A stretch of 64,000 bases of DNA from Psychrobacter sp. Ps6 (GTDB lineage: Bacteria; Pseudomonadota; Gammaproteobacteria; Pseudomonadales; Moraxellaceae), in contig NZ_JADQAI010000004.1 in assembly GCF_022129235.1 (NCBI RefSeq), forward strand, positions 248,001 through 312,000. Reading direction: 5' to 3'. Below are positions 26,593 through 33,065 of the stretch, piece after piece; position 1 is the stretch's first letter; the number at the start of each line of letters is the position of its first letter. Position numbers and translations under genes: made by a program. The notes under the pieces are model-generated. The model was given only the letters and a program-made list of their open reading frames with translations, was not told the origin of the DNA and searched no databases.

Positions 26593-28590
26593 ATGCCAGC
26601 TCCAATTAGCGAACGTAAACTAGCCAATGCCATCCGTGTACTGTCGTTTGACGCGGTTCAAAAAGCCAACTCTGGACATCCGGGTGCGCCAATGGGTATG
26701 GCTGATATTGCCGAAGTTTTGTGGCGCAAATTTTTGAAGCACAATCCAGCAGATCCTAATTGGCACAACCGTGACCGCTTTGTACTGTCAAACGGTCACG
26801 GCTCGATGCTTATTTATTCATTGTTACATTTATCAGGTTATGATGTGAGTGTTGATGACCTAAAAGGTTTCCGTCAGCTGCATTCAAAGACCCCAGGTCA
26901 TCCTGAACTTGGCTACACGCCTGGTGTAGAAACGACTACTGGTCCACTAGGACAAGGTATTGCCAATGCCGTTGGTTTTGCGATTGCAGAAAAAACGCTC
27001 GCCGCACAGTTCAACCGTGACGGTCATAATATCGTTGATCACCATACCTATGCATTCTTAGGCGATGGTTGCTTGATGGAAGGTATCAGTCATGAAGTAT
27101 GCTCACTCGCTGGCACATTAGGCCTGGGCAAATTGGTATTCTTCTATGATGATAATGGTATCTCAATCGATGGTAATGTCGAAGGTTGGTTCACTGATGA
27201 TACCGAAGCGCGCTTTGAGTCGTACGGCTGGCAAGTTATCAAAGTCGATGGTCACGATACTGATGCGATCACGCAAGCAACTGAGCAAGCGATTGCAGAG
27301 ACTGCTAAGCCAAGCTTGATCATTTGTAAAACCACCATCGGTGCTGGTAGCCCGAACAAACAAGGTCTTGCAGCCAGTCATGGCGCGCCACTCGGTGATG
27401 ACGAAATTGCCCTGACGCGTGATGCATTGTCTTGGAAACATGCACCGTTTGAATTAGCTGACGAAATCTATGAAGCATGGGATGCTAAAGCCAAAGGCGA
27501 CGTACAGCAAAAGAACTGGGATGCAGACTTTGAAGCGTATAAAAAAGCCTATCCAGAGCTTGCCGCAGAACTATCACGCCGTCTAAATGGCGAGTTGCCC
27601 GCTGACTTTGCTAGCCAAGCGCAAGCTTATATTCAGCAAACGCAAGAAGCGGGCGGTGATGTTGCTAGTCGTAAAGCTAGCCAAAATGCTATCAACAGCT
27701 TGCAGCCGTTATTGCCAGAATTGCTAGGCGGTTCAGCGGATCTAGCTGGCTCGAACCTTACGCTATTCAAAGGCGCGAAAGGCATCGAAAAAGACGCTGA
27801 CGGCAACTATATCTATTACGGTGTGCGCGAGTTCGGTATGACCGCGATTGCCAATGGTATCGCACTACATGGCGGCTTTATCCCTTACGTAGCGACTTTC
27901 CTAATGTTTATGGAATACGCACGTAACGCCGTACGCATGGGCGCACTCATGAAGCAGCGCGTCATCCACGTCTATACGCATGACTCTATCGGTCTGGGTG
28001 AAGACGGCCCGACGCATCAGCCAGTTGAGCAATTGACGAGCCTACGTACCACGCCGAATCTACGTACATGGCGTCCGTGTGATGCGACTGAATCTGCCAG
28101 CGCTTGGGTAGAAGCAATCAAATCAGAAAACAACCCATCAGCATTGATCTTTAGCCGTCAAAGCTTGCCACATCAAGCGCGCGATAGCGAGCAAGTAGCG
28201 AACATCACCAAAGGTGGTTATGTATTGGCAAAAGAGCAAGGCGAGCTACAAGCCATCATCATCGCAACTGGTTCAGAAGTTGGCCTAGCGATGGAAGCGT
28301 ACGAGACGTTAAGTGCAAACGGTGTTGGCGTCCGTGTGGTGTCTATGCCGTGTGCTGAGATTTTCGTCGAGCAAGATGCTAGCTATCGTGAAGCCGTATT
28401 GCCTGCCAATATCCGTGCCCGCGTCGCAGTAGAAGCCGCTCATGTAGATTACTGGTATAAGTTCGTTGGTCTAGATGGCAAAGTCATCGGTATGACCACT
28501 TATGGCGAATCTGCCCCAGCTAGCGATCTATATAAAGAGTTTGGTATTACCACTAATGCTGTGGTTGAAGCGGTAAATAGTTTGGTGTAA
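26593..28590 (+). CDS. tkt: Transketolase
   Basis: Transketolase moves two-carbon ketol units between sugar phosphates in the pentose phosphate pathway using thiamine diphosphate. The 665-residue protein has [20 protein letters not shown] at the N-terminus, [27 protein letters not shown], the TPP/Mg motif [14 protein letters not shown], then [20 protein letters not shown] and [17 protein letters not shown]. The C-terminal domain ends normally. The ATG at 26593 sits after AGGACACTCT. A strong terminator follows. Identification is certain. Confidence 0.98.
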
Positions 28591-28613: not shown

Positions 28614-28652
28614 AAAAAAGAGCCATTAGAGAAATCTAGTGGCTCTTTTTTT
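28614..28652 (+). terminator. Terminator after tkt
   Basis: AGAGCCATTAGA pairs with TCTAGTGGCTCT (one G-T wobble), with an A-run before and a T-run after. A diverged copy of this hairpin occurs at 30231-30264. Confidence 0.9.
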
Positions 28653-28807
28653 ATGATGGAAAGATGAAAATATGTTGACTAATTTTTATAAGAATCTATA
28701 ATTCAGTTTGTAGTAAAAAGTTATTTTAAGTTTTTGTTATGTAACAAATATTCATGGTTTGATGCGTAGCACGAACCTTTAAACAGCTCCTTTGAGTGAG
28801 TACTCAT

Positions 28808-30154
28808 ATGCCATATCCTCGCGTAAATAAAAACCTTGGTTTAACCCTTTTCACTATTCTTTTTACTATCTCTTTAGCTGCGTGTGGGGGTTCTGGGGAT
28901 GGCTCTGGAAGTGAAAATAATGATGACATTGTTAAGCCTAATACTCCTACGTCCACCGATAAATGCAAAGATAAAACTGCTAGTAATTCAGGGCAGGCTG
29001 ACTTAGACGAAGATGGAATCATTGACGACTGCGACGATGACATCGATGGTGACGGCGTTGTGAATGCAAAAGACGCAAGACCTTTGGATGCCACTATTGC
29101 TGGCATCAGCACTAAATCTTATAAAGGAGACGGTTTTGGCTATATAAATGCAACTGAAAGTTTTTACTTTAATGGCAAAAATCAGCTGGTTGAGCAAGAA
29201 TACCTATCATCTAGCAATCCTGATCGAGCTAATACCTCAACGCAGTTTACTTACGACAATAAAGATCGCCTAATTCGCCGCGAACAAACCCGTGGTCTCG
29301 ATAAGCGAAGTGATGGTATCGAAGTATGGGTATATGATCAAAAAGGTCAGCTAACTGAGTTCAATACTAATTCTGATGGAGATAGTATTTTTGAGAGAAC
29401 AGTAACTTATCAATATAATTCAAACGGTAATATCGAACAGATAGTAGAAAAGGATTCAAGTGATTCGAGGTTTTTCTATAATTCAACAAGAACATATACT
29501 TATAATAGCTCTAATCAGTTAGAAAAAATTGAGACGGATGAATATAACGACGGTAGTATAGACAGAGTTGAAGATATAACTTTTAATATTAATAATTACC
29601 TAGCTAAGTCTGCTCTATCTTTTGTAAGAGTTGATGAAAATACTAATAATGATGTTAGAGAATTGCGTAATACTTTAGAGCTCAGCTACGATAATCAAGG
29701 TAATGTTACAAAAGTTGTTGATAGCTCAATCGATTATGGAAGTGTTCGAGCTGTTACCTATAGCTATGATAATCAAAAAAATATTATTAGAAAGACAACT
29801 AATGACGAACCATCTGTTATCGATATTGAAGTTTCTTATAATAATTTAGGCTTAGCGACTAGTGCTACGGAAACATATGAAGGGTTTAGAGCTAACGTTC
29901 AGAATGTTACTAATAAAGCTGAATATAATAATGCAGGATACTTAACTAAAACTCTAGTAGATGTTAGTCAAAATGGAAAAATCAACCAAGAGATTACTTA
30001 CAGCTATGAAGGAAGCGTCCCACTAAAGTTTAATATGCCAACATTTATAGATTTTGGATTATCTAATAATAGAGCTCCTACTGCGACTAGTTTATTGAAT
30101 AAAGTGAATGCTAGATATACCGCAGATATGATTAAAGAGTCTTATTATGACTAA
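28808..30154 (+). CDS. Lipoprotein with calcium-type repeats and YD-like repeats
   Basis: I do not know the function of this 448-residue protein. A signal peptide ends at a good lipobox (SLAAC, Cys26 counted from the ATG at 28808). A GTG 12 bases upstream is an alternative start. A Gly/Ser/Asp spacer leads to thrombospondin-3-like acidic repeats (ADLDEDGIIDDCDDDIDGDG, about 67-87) that usually bind Ca2+. From about residue 105 on, YD/RHS-like units recur, for example FTYDNKDRLIRRE, YDQKGQLTEFN, YQYNSNGNIEQI, LSYDNQGNVTKV and YSYDNQKNIIRK. It is therefore a predicted outer-membrane-anchored, beta-rich surface protein. The second half is strikingly AT-rich and Asn-rich, unlike tkt next door. 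There is no RHS core or toxin tip. Confidence 0.8.
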   Translation: MPYPRVNKNLGLTLFTILFTISLAACGGSGDGSGSENNDDIVKPNTPTSTDKCKDKTASNSGQADLDEDGIIDDCDDDIDGDGVVNAKDARPLDATIAGISTKSYKGDGFGYINATESFYFNGKNQLVEQEYLSSSNPDRANTSTQFTYDNKDRLIRREQTRGLDKRSDGIEVWVYDQKGQLTEFNTNSDGDSIFERTVTYQYNSNGNIEQIVEKDSSDSRFFYNSTRTYTYNSSNQLEKIETDEYNDGSIDRVEDITFNINNYLAKSALSFVRVDENTNNDVRELRNTLELSYDNQGNVTKVVDSSIDYGSVRAVTYSYDNQKNIIRKTTNDEPSVIDIEVSYNNLGLATSATETYEGFRANVQNVTNKAEYNNAGYLTKTLVDVSQNGKINQEITYSYEGSVPLKFNMPTFIDFGLSNNRAPTATSLLNKVNARYTADMIKESYYD

Positions 30155-30230
30155 CTATATATCTGAGATTGTTATGTCTATAAAGAGTTTACTGTAATTT
30201 AAGCATAAACTAAATTTTTAGTTTATGAGA

Positions 30231-30264
30231 GAGCCGTTAGAGTAGTCTAATAGTTCTTTTTAGT
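30231..30264 (+). terminator. Terminator-like hairpin after the lipoprotein gene
   Basis: AGAGCCGTTAGA faces TCTAATAGTTCT with two wobbles and one mismatch, then TTTTTA. A second small hairpin (CATAAACTA at 30204-30212, TAGTTTATG at 30219-30227) lies just before it. The sequence is clearly related to the tkt terminator. Confidence 0.6.
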
Positions 30265-30295
30265 TGCACACCAAGTTTGATGAGCGAGATATTAA

Positions 30296-31045
30296 ATGAG
30301 CAATAATTATACAGTCGATGACAATAGCATTGCTTCAAATCCCGGTAATACAGAGCTAAATAAATGGGTATGGTTTTGTCATAATAAAATGTTCGTAAGC
30401 TTATTGACACTATTTCTAATTTGCTCATTATTAGCTACGATGGTCATCGATGTTATGTATTTCTTAGTTACTGTTATTGCAGTAGTGATGAACCTTTATT
30501 ACTGGGTAAATAAAAAGGAGCATTTTCTAAGTGGAGATTCAAATGGAGGTATTGTTGTAGATACTTATCCTACTCTCATTGCAGTTAATACAAATTTAAC
30601 TAAAGGTTACGGTCATTTCCCAGTAGTCAAAATAATGAAATGTACTTCATTAGAAAATGTGTCTGTTGGCGATAGAGTACCAACAGTTGCGCTCTATACT
30701 GCCTCAACTAATGACGATTTAGCACATTGGCTAGACTTCAACCCTATTCCTTTATCCTACGCAACTAATGATGCAAAGATAATAAAGTTAGCTATGCAAA
30801 GTTATTCGAACGAACAGTGGGAGGAGTTGGAAAAATATTTATTAGAATTAGAGAAGCCATATAAGCCAGGTTTATATCATGTTGATAAAGAACAGAGTAA
30901 TTGGAATGAGCAATTGAATGACTCTCTAAGTATTTTGAGTAGTATTGAACTTGAAGGAGGAAGTGGACGAATTAATCTAATGAAGATTGTAATTAGCGTA
31001 ATGGTATTTATAGCTATTTTATATGGGCTAAAGATTTTCATTTAA
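30296..31045 (+). CDS. Uncharacterised membrane protein (possibly DUF3239)
   Basis: The 249-residue product has two close membrane helices near the N-terminus (about residues 31-50, KMFVSLLTLFLICSLLATMV, and 51-70), a soluble middle domain and a final membrane helix (about 231-249). The middle contains GDSNGGIVVDTYPTLIAV and TNLTKGYGHFPVVKIMKC, which remind me of the DUF3239 family, of unknown function. That match is from memory and weak. Codon use is AT-rich like the preceding gene. It precedes the NERD nuclease gene by about 40 bases on the same strand, so the two are probably co-transcribed. Confidence 0.65.
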   Translation: MSNNYTVDDNSIASNPGNTELNKWVWFCHNKMFVSLLTLFLICSLLATMVIDVMYFLVTVIAVVMNLYYWVNKKEHFLSGDSNGGIVVDTYPTLIAVNTNLTKGYGHFPVVKIMKCTSLENVSVGDRVPTVALYTASTNDDLAHWLDFNPIPLSYATNDAKIIKLAMQSYSNEQWEELEKYLLELEKPYKPGLYHVDKEQSNWNEQLNDSLSILSSIELEGGSGRINLMKIVISVMVFIAILYGLKIFI

Positions 31046-31085
31046 CGGGTATCAACCTAATGAGTTATTTCTCGAGAAATCTACA

Positions 31086-32081
31086 ATGTCCCTAAAATCC
31101 AGTTTTAAAGGTTTCCTAGGTGAAACCGTCATCAATGTTGCCATGTGGCTTAAGCTTGAAAAAGATGTTTACCATAGATTAAACGGTATTACCTTGCCAT
31201 TAGCTAATGGTGGCAGTACGCAAATCGATCATATTATTGTCTCTGTTTACGGTATTTTCGTGATTGAGACCAAAAACTATAAAGGCTGGATATACGGTAG
31301 CGAGAATCAAAGACAGTGGACGCAAGCCTTTCCTAATGGAAGTAAATTCAAATTCCAAAATCCATTGCGCCAAAACTACTTGCACATTAAGACGCTGGCA
31401 GATTTATTAGGCTTGGAGCTGAGCTATTTTCATTCGATGATTGCGTTCATTGGTGAGTGCGAGTTGAAAACCCGTGATGAGCTACCCGAGCATGTATTGA
31501 CGAGTGGTATGGTCTCTTATGTTAAGAAGAAAAAAGATAAGCTACTCACCGAAGACGAGGTTACATCCATCGTTGAGCAGATTAATAGCAATAGGTTTAG
31601 CAAATCATGGCGTACCAATCGGCAGCACAAAGCCTATCTAAAAGATAAGCATAGTAACCCAAGCAAGAATACTGATAATCCTACACTTGAACCAATAGTT
31701 AAAGAAACTGTAAAAAGAACTCCTCTAAAAAGTAGGGAAGTACATGGATGGTCTGGTCAAACTGAGATTGAATCTAGCGAGTTACCGATTGATAGTTTAA
31801 ATACTCAGCAGACAATCACACCGCATAACAGTATGTCGCATGATATGGCCAATAAAGTGTTTATGACGCCGTTTGAGGTTGTAGAATTTGAGCCACAGGT
31901 GGATGAGCCTGCGATACTTAAAGCGACAGACCATGACGCTAATATCGATCAAGCGCCAATCTGCCCAAGATGTAACGGCGAGATGGTTGAACGCATCGCA
32001 AAAAAAGGCGCACGCCAAGGACAATCCTTTTATGGGTGCGCGCAGTTTCCTAAGTGCCGAGGTGTGGTGAATATTACTTAG
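31086..32081 (+). CDS. NERD-domain nuclease with topoisomerase-type zinc finger
   Basis: The 331-residue protein starts with a NERD (nuclease-related) domain, a PD-(D/E)xK-like fold. Glu13 (FLGETV), Asp48 (STQIDHIIVS) and the pair Glu61/Lys63 (FVIETKNYKG) form a complete active site. The domain runs to about residue 175. A polar linker of about 110 residues follows. The C-terminus is a four-Cys zinc ribbon of the topoisomerase I type (Cys293, Cys296, Cys318 and Cys324, with FYGCAQFPKC), which usually binds DNA. NERD-zinc finger fusions are known, and some NERD proteins occur with DNA-processing or defence genes, but the role of this one is not known. It converges on dppF with only 12 bases between stops. 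Confidence 0.88.
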   Translation: MSLKSSFKGFLGETVINVAMWLKLEKDVYHRLNGITLPLANGGSTQIDHIIVSVYGIFVIETKNYKGWIYGSENQRQWTQAFPNGSKFKFQNPLRQNYLHIKTLADLLGLELSYFHSMIAFIGECELKTRDELPEHVLTSGMVSYVKKKKDKLLTEDEVTSIVEQINSNRFSKSWRTNRQHKAYLKDKHSNPSKNTDNPTLEPIVKETVKRTPLKSREVHGWSGQTEIESSELPIDSLNTQQTITPHNSMSHDMANKVFMTPFEVVEFEPQVDEPAILKATDHDANIDQAPICPRCNGEMVERIAKKGARQGQSFYGCAQFPKCRGVVNIT

Positions 32082-32093
32082 CCGTTAGTCACC

Positions 32094-33065
32094 TTAACCA
32101 TATATCTCTTCCAAACGCAGACAAGCCACCAATCGACCGTCCCATTCGCGCAGTTGTGGCTCGATTTCGCTGCACTGCGAGGTCGCATATGGGCAGCGTT
32201 TATGTAGAGCACAGCCGCTTGGCGGATTAAGCGGGCTTGGTAGCTCACCTTGTAGCGTCAAATCTTTCTTTTGGCCATTTACTGTGGGTGCAGCCGCCAG
32301 TAATGCGATGGTATAAGGATGCTTTGGCGCATTATAAATGGCTTCTTTCGGCCCGTGCTCGACCGCTTGACCCAAATACATCACCATCACATCATCAGCG
32401 ACATGACGTACGACTGATAAGTTGTGTGAGATAAAAACGTAGGCAGTACGATATTCATCTTGCAAATCCATAAACAGATTTAAGACCTGCGCCTGAATAG
32501 ATACGTCGAGCGCGGAGGTCGGCTCATCAGCGACGACAATTTTTGGATTGAGCATCATCGCGCGGGCGAGGGCAATCCGCTGGCGCTGACCACCCGAAAA
32601 CATATGTGGAAAACGACCAGCATGTTCAGGACGTAGGCCAACATTTCTCATCATCTCGTTGATTTTGTCACGCTTTTCTTCTTTAGACAGATTGGTATGA
32701 ATATCCAACGGCTCCGTCAGTTGATAGGCGATAGTATGACGCGGGTTTAAGCTACCATAAGGGTTTTGGAAGACCATTTGAATTTCGGTACGTAAGTCTT
32801 TGAGCGCCTTTCTGCTATAGCCGGTGGTGCCTTCATCATTGATAAACAGCTCGCCTTGCGTAGGCGCTTCGATCAGCGTCAACTGGCGGGCAAGGGTAGA
32901 TTTGCCGCAGCCTGACTCACCAACGACTGCGAGCGTCTTCCCAGCTTCAAGCTCGAATGAGATACCGTTTAGGGCTTTGACATACGCTTTTGGTTTACCC
33001 AGTCCTTGTGATACTGGGTAATGCTTGTGTAGATTGTCTGCTTTTAAAACCACTTTATTACTCAT
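32094..33065 (-). CDS. dppF: Dipeptide ABC transporter, ATP-binding subunit DppF
   Basis: This is the second ATPase of a peptide/nickel-type ABC importer. The 323-residue protein has Walker [10 protein letters not shown], the Q-loop segment [15 protein letters not shown], the signature [14 protein letters not shown], Walker [13 protein letters not shown] and the His switch SHNLSV. The C-terminal oligopeptide domain has [18 protein letters not shown] with its Cys cluster, which in related proteins holds an iron-sulfur cluster. ATG overlaps the dppD stop by 4 bases (ATGA), so translation is coupled. It is the last gene of the operon. Confidence 0.93.

Follow-up and report, generated by a model that had tools for sequence, protein, structure and literature searches.

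This work describes a variable stretch of the Psychrobacter chromosome, lying between tkt (transketolase) and a gene for a NERD-domain protein, as it occurs in Psychrobacter sp. Ps6. The analysed window is a stretch of 64,000 nucleotides (RefSeq assembly GCF_022129235.1, contig NZ_JADQAI010000004.1, forward strand, positions 248,001 to 312,000), and all coordinates below are positions within it. Between tkt and dppF, three open reading frames (ORFs) follow each other on the plus strand, located as a first-pass annotation of the sequence had placed them. They encode a lipoprotein, a DUF3239 membrane protein and a NERD protein with a zinc ribbon (Table 1). For the lipoprotein, the ORF list gives a GTG start at 28796; the ATG at 28808 is preferred here.

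Genes between tkt and dppF

The lipoprotein and DUF3239 genes have a GC content of 0.351 and 0.329, respectively, compared to 0.435 for the window and 0.45-0.49 for the flanking dpp genes, and their GC content at third codon positions (GC3) is 0.25 and 0.28. The NERD gene has a GC content of 0.416 and an ordinary GC3 of 0.42. The raised A+T content that had been ascribed to all three genes is found in the first two but not in the third: the AT-rich patch consists of the lipoprotein and DUF3239 genes and excludes the NERD gene.

The lipoprotein displays an RHS repeat above the Pfam cut-off (E 1.5e-7) and a lipobox, LFTISLAAC, spotted by eye. Its earlier description as a TSP3-type plus YD-repeat lipoprotein agrees with the repeat and the lipobox, whereas the TSP3 match remains under the Pfam cut-off (16.2 versus 25 bits). 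The dN/dS values of 0.16-0.24 point to purifying selection, and no match was found among the curated anti-phage proteins of PADLOC. A surface role would be a guess from the lipobox and the repeats.

The DUF3239 protein scores 52.2 bits against the 25-bit gathering score of its Pfam family. Its predicted model (mean pLDDT 57.4, pTM 0.50) contains three long helices (31-51, 53-77 and 228-248), in agreement with the three-helix membrane protein proposed before, and is laid out as two N-terminal helices, a soluble domain and a C-terminal helix. The sole Foldseek match with E < 0.001 is 3c8i, a DUF3239 (PF11580) structure from Corynebacterium diphtheriae. The fold is shared, but 3c8i spans about 130 residues, while the protein described here has the two N-terminal helices and the C-terminal helix in addition. 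Purifying selection is indicated for this gene as well (dN/dS 0.18-0.26 where computable), and PADLOC again gave no curated anti-phage match.

The third protein combines a NERD domain (PF08378, E 1.7e-29) with a Zn_ribbon_Top1 domain (PF01396, E 2.7e-9). Together with the four ribbon cysteines (C293, C296, C318 and C324), both domains bear out the earlier reading as a NERD nuclease with a four-Cys zinc ribbon, the nuclease activity being predicted. Residues D47, E61 and K63 form a D...ExK-type pattern, which we take to be the catalytic motif of NERD proteins and which is kept in all 55 NERD ORFs of at least 250 aa. PADLOC returned partial matches only, to the NERD part of PglW and others, and the protein lies far under the NCBIfam cut-off for PglW (27.9 versus 990 bits). 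Its dN/dS is 0.07-0.17; that of dppF is 0.007-0.030.

A hairpin lies 3' of the lipoprotein gene, and a search of the 40-bp gap between the DUF3239 and NERD genes returned no terminator-like site. The suggestion that the membrane protein and the nuclease share one transcript is plausible. Two other genomes with a close DUF3239 homologue (G036 and G096) nevertheless lack the intact pair.

Table 1. Features of the tkt-dppF locus, in window positions
Feature	Position	Strand	Basis
tkt (transketolase), constant left border gene	26593..28590	+	Match in 105/105 Psychrobacter genomes; serS-tkt junction kept in 30/30
tkt intrinsic terminator hairpin	28614..28651	+	RNA fold -24.3 kcal/mol, z -6.7
Variable slot (probable replacement-type insertion site), now with lipoprotein and DUF3239 genes	28656..31085	.	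Arrangement survey; identity profile against G035
Cargo 1, RHS/YD-repeat lipoprotein, weak TSP3 match	28808..30154	+	Pfam; 4/4 strong genus homologues in slot
Terminator-like hairpin (30227-30260), resembling the tkt 3' untranslated region	30206..30261	+	Fold -13.2 kcal/mol; local score 50
Cargo 2, DUF3239 membrane protein, 249 aa	30296..31045	+	PF11580, E 9.8e-14; Foldseek 3c8i, E 9.4e-5
NERD nuclease-like gene with zinc ribbon, right border of the slot	31086..32081	+	Pfam; D...ExK-type pattern
dppF, next gene rightward	32094..33065	-	Genome comparison

Borders and cargo of the tkt-NERD slot

The genus survey comprised 105 Psychrobacter genomes, with that of the window labeled G000 and that of P. 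nivimaris LAMA 639 labeled G035. From 78 of these genomes, 80 regions were compared with the window. Fifty-seven loci had both borders, tkt and the NERD start, on a single contig and were kept; the remaining 23 were excluded because a contig ended or because the NERD start was absent or short. From ten extra regions only L204-L206 were used; L207-L213 were left out. ORFs below 100 aa were omitted from the family count, and the resulting slot families were analyzed with Pfam (40/40) and PADLOC (28/40).

Homology with the window mostly ends at 28650-28661, where the tkt terminator ends (blastn borders), and mostly returns at 31072-31086, at the NERD start codon. What lies between these borders differs strongly across the 57 loci, with 33 gene arrangements built from 40 families and a slot length of 826-10,780 bp (median 1,432). 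The slot is never empty (0/57), as each contains an ORF of at least 100 aa. The other side of tkt served as control: of 30 loci, 28 have serS 255-491 bp upstream of tkt and the other two have it at about 1.1 kb. The sequence comparison thus points to a replacement slot between tkt and the NERD gene, of which the lipoprotein and DUF3239 genes would be the present occupants and whose contents would change by homologous recombination; we assign this reading a probability of roughly 0.78.

Both occupants are rare. Strong lipoprotein matches are confined to four of the 105 genomes (G000, G003, G035 and G088), and ten further genomes show weak matches of 126-189 bases restricted to the N-terminal part. 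DUF3239 matches occur in eight genomes, four of which are close (G000, G035, G036 and G096). All four lipoprotein genes and all four close DUF3239 homologues lie in the slot, at the tkt end of the locus. The same holds for family c8, which is weakly SLATT_6-like: relatives with at least 52% identity are located in the slot in 13/13 genomes, and 13 more distant matches lie elsewhere. The two occupants are also found apart: G088 has the lipoprotein but no full DUF3239 gene, as does G003 to the extent that its broken contigs reveal, and G036 and G096 have DUF3239 but no lipoprotein. NERD matches, fragments included, were found in 78 of the 105 genomes, mostly beside tkt. Since the NERD gene is widespread with a normal GC3 and the other two genes are rare and AT-rich, the three do not have a single common origin. 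The horizontal gain proposed earlier is supported for the lipoprotein and DUF3239 genes but not for the NERD gene. By its distribution and composition, the NERD gene is an old resident that is no part of the AT-rich patch.

Although it forms the right border of the slot, the NERD gene is lost or present as a remnant in part of the genus. Remnant or truncated copies, often comprising the zinc-ribbon end only, were observed in L184 (G101), L177 (G011), L149 (G085), L129 (G048) and L170 (G096). The gene is also mosaic: the nearest relatives of codons 1-198 differ from those of the linker and zinc-ribbon part, as in G053, where the two parts show 95% and 63% protein identity. The interval between the NERD gene and dppF is a second variable stretch (L138, L142, L118 and L156), which differs in the presence of a LysR-like regulator with a small gene (c12 and c13; by eye) and of DUF4424 genes (c5); c5 is found within the slot as well.

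Much of the slot cargo consists of single-gene or two-gene defence-like units. Based on Pfam and PADLOC, these include AbiTii (G060 and G005), an HNH protein resembling SAVED effectors (G066), a ThsB-like TIR protein with a PDC-S60-like NTPase (G027), an AAA_15 ATPase like NsnB/PDC-M55 (G031), a NucC-like DUF6602 protein (G001), PIN_12 (G018) and, under the Pfam cut-off, a HEPN-like protein (G034). Two genomes outside the 57 loci, which have no intact NERD gene, carry SduA of Shedu (G008, E 2.1e-107) and PDC-S28 (G048, E 2.4e-285) at the site. An excess of defence genes over the background is suggestive. The Pfam scan revealed no integrase or recombinase in any of the 40 families, and the only mobile-element genes are two adjacent transposase-type ORFs (c76 and c77) in one genome.

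In two slots of about 10 kb, L162 (G097) and L169 (G030), a gene for a PAAR-motif protein precedes repeated small genes of the lipoprotein-like and Sel1-repeat kind, an arrangement that resembles a secretion effector and its immunity arrays. In addition, the same kind of insertion sequence, judged by its end letters, interrupts slot cargo at contig breaks in G035 (L192 end/L193 start) and G037 (L073 end/L014 start).

For the DUF3239 protein, a role as membrane-anchored accessory of DNA or phage defence is the most likely one, yet we propose it tentatively and at less than even odds. Outside the slot, P. phenylpyruvicus (G039) has a relative immediately after hsdS of a type I restriction locus that includes hsdR, and G047 has another immediately after hsdS of such a locus, near an Abi_2 gene. 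These relatives in two other Psychrobacter genomes make a defence role plausible. The defence idea voiced in the first-pass annotation gains indirect support from them and from the other cargo of the slot; it is unproven.

Over the last ~66 bases of the DUF3239 gene, the gap and the NERD start, the sequence matches the end of a gene of the unrelated family c19 in G069 and G029 at 82-84% identity (window 30980-31168; L132 3160-3348; L140 3179-3364, in oriented copies). Two different proteins therefore have one common C-terminal membrane helix, perhaps as a result of recombination inside a cargo gene.

Probable exchange between species and alternative explanations

Relatedness to the window's genome was measured with a control gene 22 kb away, which gave 93% identity for G042, 93% for G041, 92% for G037 and 87% for G035. 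The three nearest relatives carry other cargo, namely c8 and c14 (G041), a gene that matches HEPN weakly, under the Pfam cut-off (G042), and an interrupted RelA/SpoT-like gene (G037). G035 has the same cassette, with 96.6% identity for the lipoprotein gene (over a 774-base piece) and 98.1% for DUF3239. Its flanks are less similar: tkt is 92.4% identical, NERD codons 1-198 are 88.4% identical, the remaining NERD codons 74.4% and dppF 88.8%. In 100-base steps, identity between both genomes reaches 92-100% within the slot only, from about 28694, just past the tkt terminator, and drops to about 90% at about 31078, at the NERD start.

Other cassettes show the same relation. The LysE-like family c11 exceeds the tkt 3' end in identity in 45/45 pairs and both flanks in 44/45, with 99.5% versus 89.1% and 87.3% in the top case, and c8 exceeds both flanks in 48/66 pairs. 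Pieces of the border genes are duplicated in some genomes. In G069, G029 and G083, the order is tkt, cargo, a NERD 5' piece, c14, a tkt 3' piece, cargo and the full NERD gene, and NERD 5' pieces are also left in G041, G104, G003 and G026. Such tandem pieces fit what the stacking of two slot units via shared border sequence would leave. The segment at 30206-30261 might be a decayed tkt 3' copy from such stacking: it scores 50 against the tkt 3' region and 100 slot shuffles gave at most 36. This remains a weak indication, given the score of 46 reached by another of the window's terminators.

We infer the following course of exchange. Incoming Psychrobacter DNA, probably acquired by transformation, would carry a cargo gene between stretches of tkt and NERD sequence. 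Homologous recombination in these flanks could then let one cargo replace or join another, with no integrase needed. Both the cassette identity above that of the flanks and the tandem border pieces are consistent with such recombination.

A number of observations weigh against a slot with defence-like cargo that is exchanged in this way. Much of the cargo is not defence (the LysE exporter c11, YceI, DUF4424, and PAAR arrays of the type VI secretion system type). PADLOC matches with E ≤ 1e-10 were found for 7 of 28 slot families, one a generic methyltransferase, and also for one of ten control genes of the window (an ABC ATPase); this sample is small and its first 16 slot families were chosen partly by eye. 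No recognised defence gene was present in the listed flanks of the DUF3239 homologues of G078 and G079, and no recognised defence neighbours accompany those of G183 and G283, from another family of the order. Families c15, c23 and c31 exceed both flanks in 0/10, 0/3 and 0/1 pairs, and exchange is therefore not equally recent for all cassettes. Finally, the ComEC family is present, but equally so in the E. coli of the control set, which makes it a weak indicator of competence.

The locus could alternatively be a modular immune device, in which a constant NERD effector is transcribed together with a swappable upstream sensor or regulator and species trade co-oriented sensing or second-killing modules via the conserved flanks. 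The permanent occupation of the slot and the conserved D...ExK-type pattern would suit such a device, as would the orientation of the cargo: 34 of 40 families occur only on the NERD strand and six only on the opposite one (sign test p 8e-6), and 40 of 57 loci have a same-strand gene as the nearest neighbour upstream of NERD, no more than 150 bp away in 37. Cassettes inherited with their flanks would keep their orientation anyway, however, and no common fold was seen among the cargo families. The NERD gene is equally often intact with an opposite-strand (15/17) as with a same-strand nearest upstream gene (37/40; Fisher p 0.63), and therefore needs no upstream neighbour; NERD decay behind a neighbour on the other strand is unsupported by the same test. 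Two of the four close DUF3239 genes persist beside a NERD gene broken by a stop (G036) or a NERD remnant (G096), and the Shedu and PDC-S28 cargo lies where no intact NERD gene is present. An obligate two-gene system of DUF3239 and NERD was rejected, as each is found intact without the other. We consider the modular device unlikely.

A site-specific integrative element or transposon, with the slot as its attachment site and its recombinase bringing in the cargo, would explain the sharp and constant borders, and insertion-sequence letters or transposase-like ORFs, partly recognized by eye, occur in G035, G037, G042, G017, G008 and G027. This explanation is nevertheless very unlikely given the lack of integrases and recombinases in the cargo, the size of most cassettes (one or two genes) and the restriction of the c8, lipoprotein and close DUF3239 families to this site. 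Moreover, coding pieces of both border genes are duplicated, and integrases leave no such duplicates. Cassette DNA had no match in 72,556 plasmid records, and the DUF3239 protein had none in these or in 50,697 phage records, by which plasmid or phage carriage of the cassette was rejected as well. The first-pass inference that all three genes form one recently gained defence or toxin patch could draw on their adjacency, their common strand and the AT-richness of two of them. It is contradicted by the genus survey, in which the NERD gene occurs beside unrelated cargo and the lipoprotein and DUF3239 genes are found without each other, and we regard it as highly improbable. A replacement slot with changing occupants remains the preferred reading.

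Comparison with known variable loci

A literature search, with most subscription papers outside its reach, revealed no description of the Psychrobacter tkt-NERD locus and no paper naming DUF3239. If the preferred reading is correct, the slot is a predictable Psychrobacter site that collects small, mostly uncharacterised and often defence-like genes, and its 40 families make a short list of candidates.

The minimal mobile elements of Neisseria offer one comparison; the original papers on them are said to be those of Saunders and Snyder from 2002 and Snyder from 2007. According to the available part of a further paper, whole-gene cassettes differ by strain between two conserved genes in these elements, which are described there as devoid of mobility genes, with exchange ascribed to homologous recombination (PMC3082526). 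Conserved flanks, differing cassettes and the lack of own mobility genes are shared with the slot, which would fit the definition as given in that part except for recombination, which we infer from sequence. In contrast to the Neisseria elements as described there, the Psychrobacter slot varies across species, has an unevenly kept nuclease gene as right border and contains tandem border-gene pieces in some genomes.

The rpiA-trmE site of Streptococcus suis, a species known to develop competence, likewise is one chromosomal site with defence cargo changing between lineages (PMC5398294). As far as the accessible text of that paper goes, it differs in carrying whole restriction-modification and CRISPR systems and in varying within one species, and that text contains no analysis of duplicated borders.

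In Pseudomonas aeruginosa, the core defence hotspots cDHS1 and cDHS2 have median lengths of 26 and 6 kb and are flanked by tRNA/tmRNA genes, and many cDHS sites carry transposases, prophage or conjugative genes, as reported in the consulted sections of PMC10250203. They resemble the Psychrobacter slot in having defence-like cargo between conserved flanks, in being nearly always occupied and in lacking a single mobilising element, whereas the slot is shorter, at a median of 1.4 kb, and nearly free of mobile genes. Whether such sites are transferred via their conserved flanks is left open in those sections (PMC10250203). The Psychrobacter slot may provide sequence evidence on this question: cassettes of up to 99.5% identity in species that differ by more than 10% in the flanking genes would be a direct sign of flank-mediated exchange, and suggest movement by homologous recombination via conserved flanks without a mobile element.

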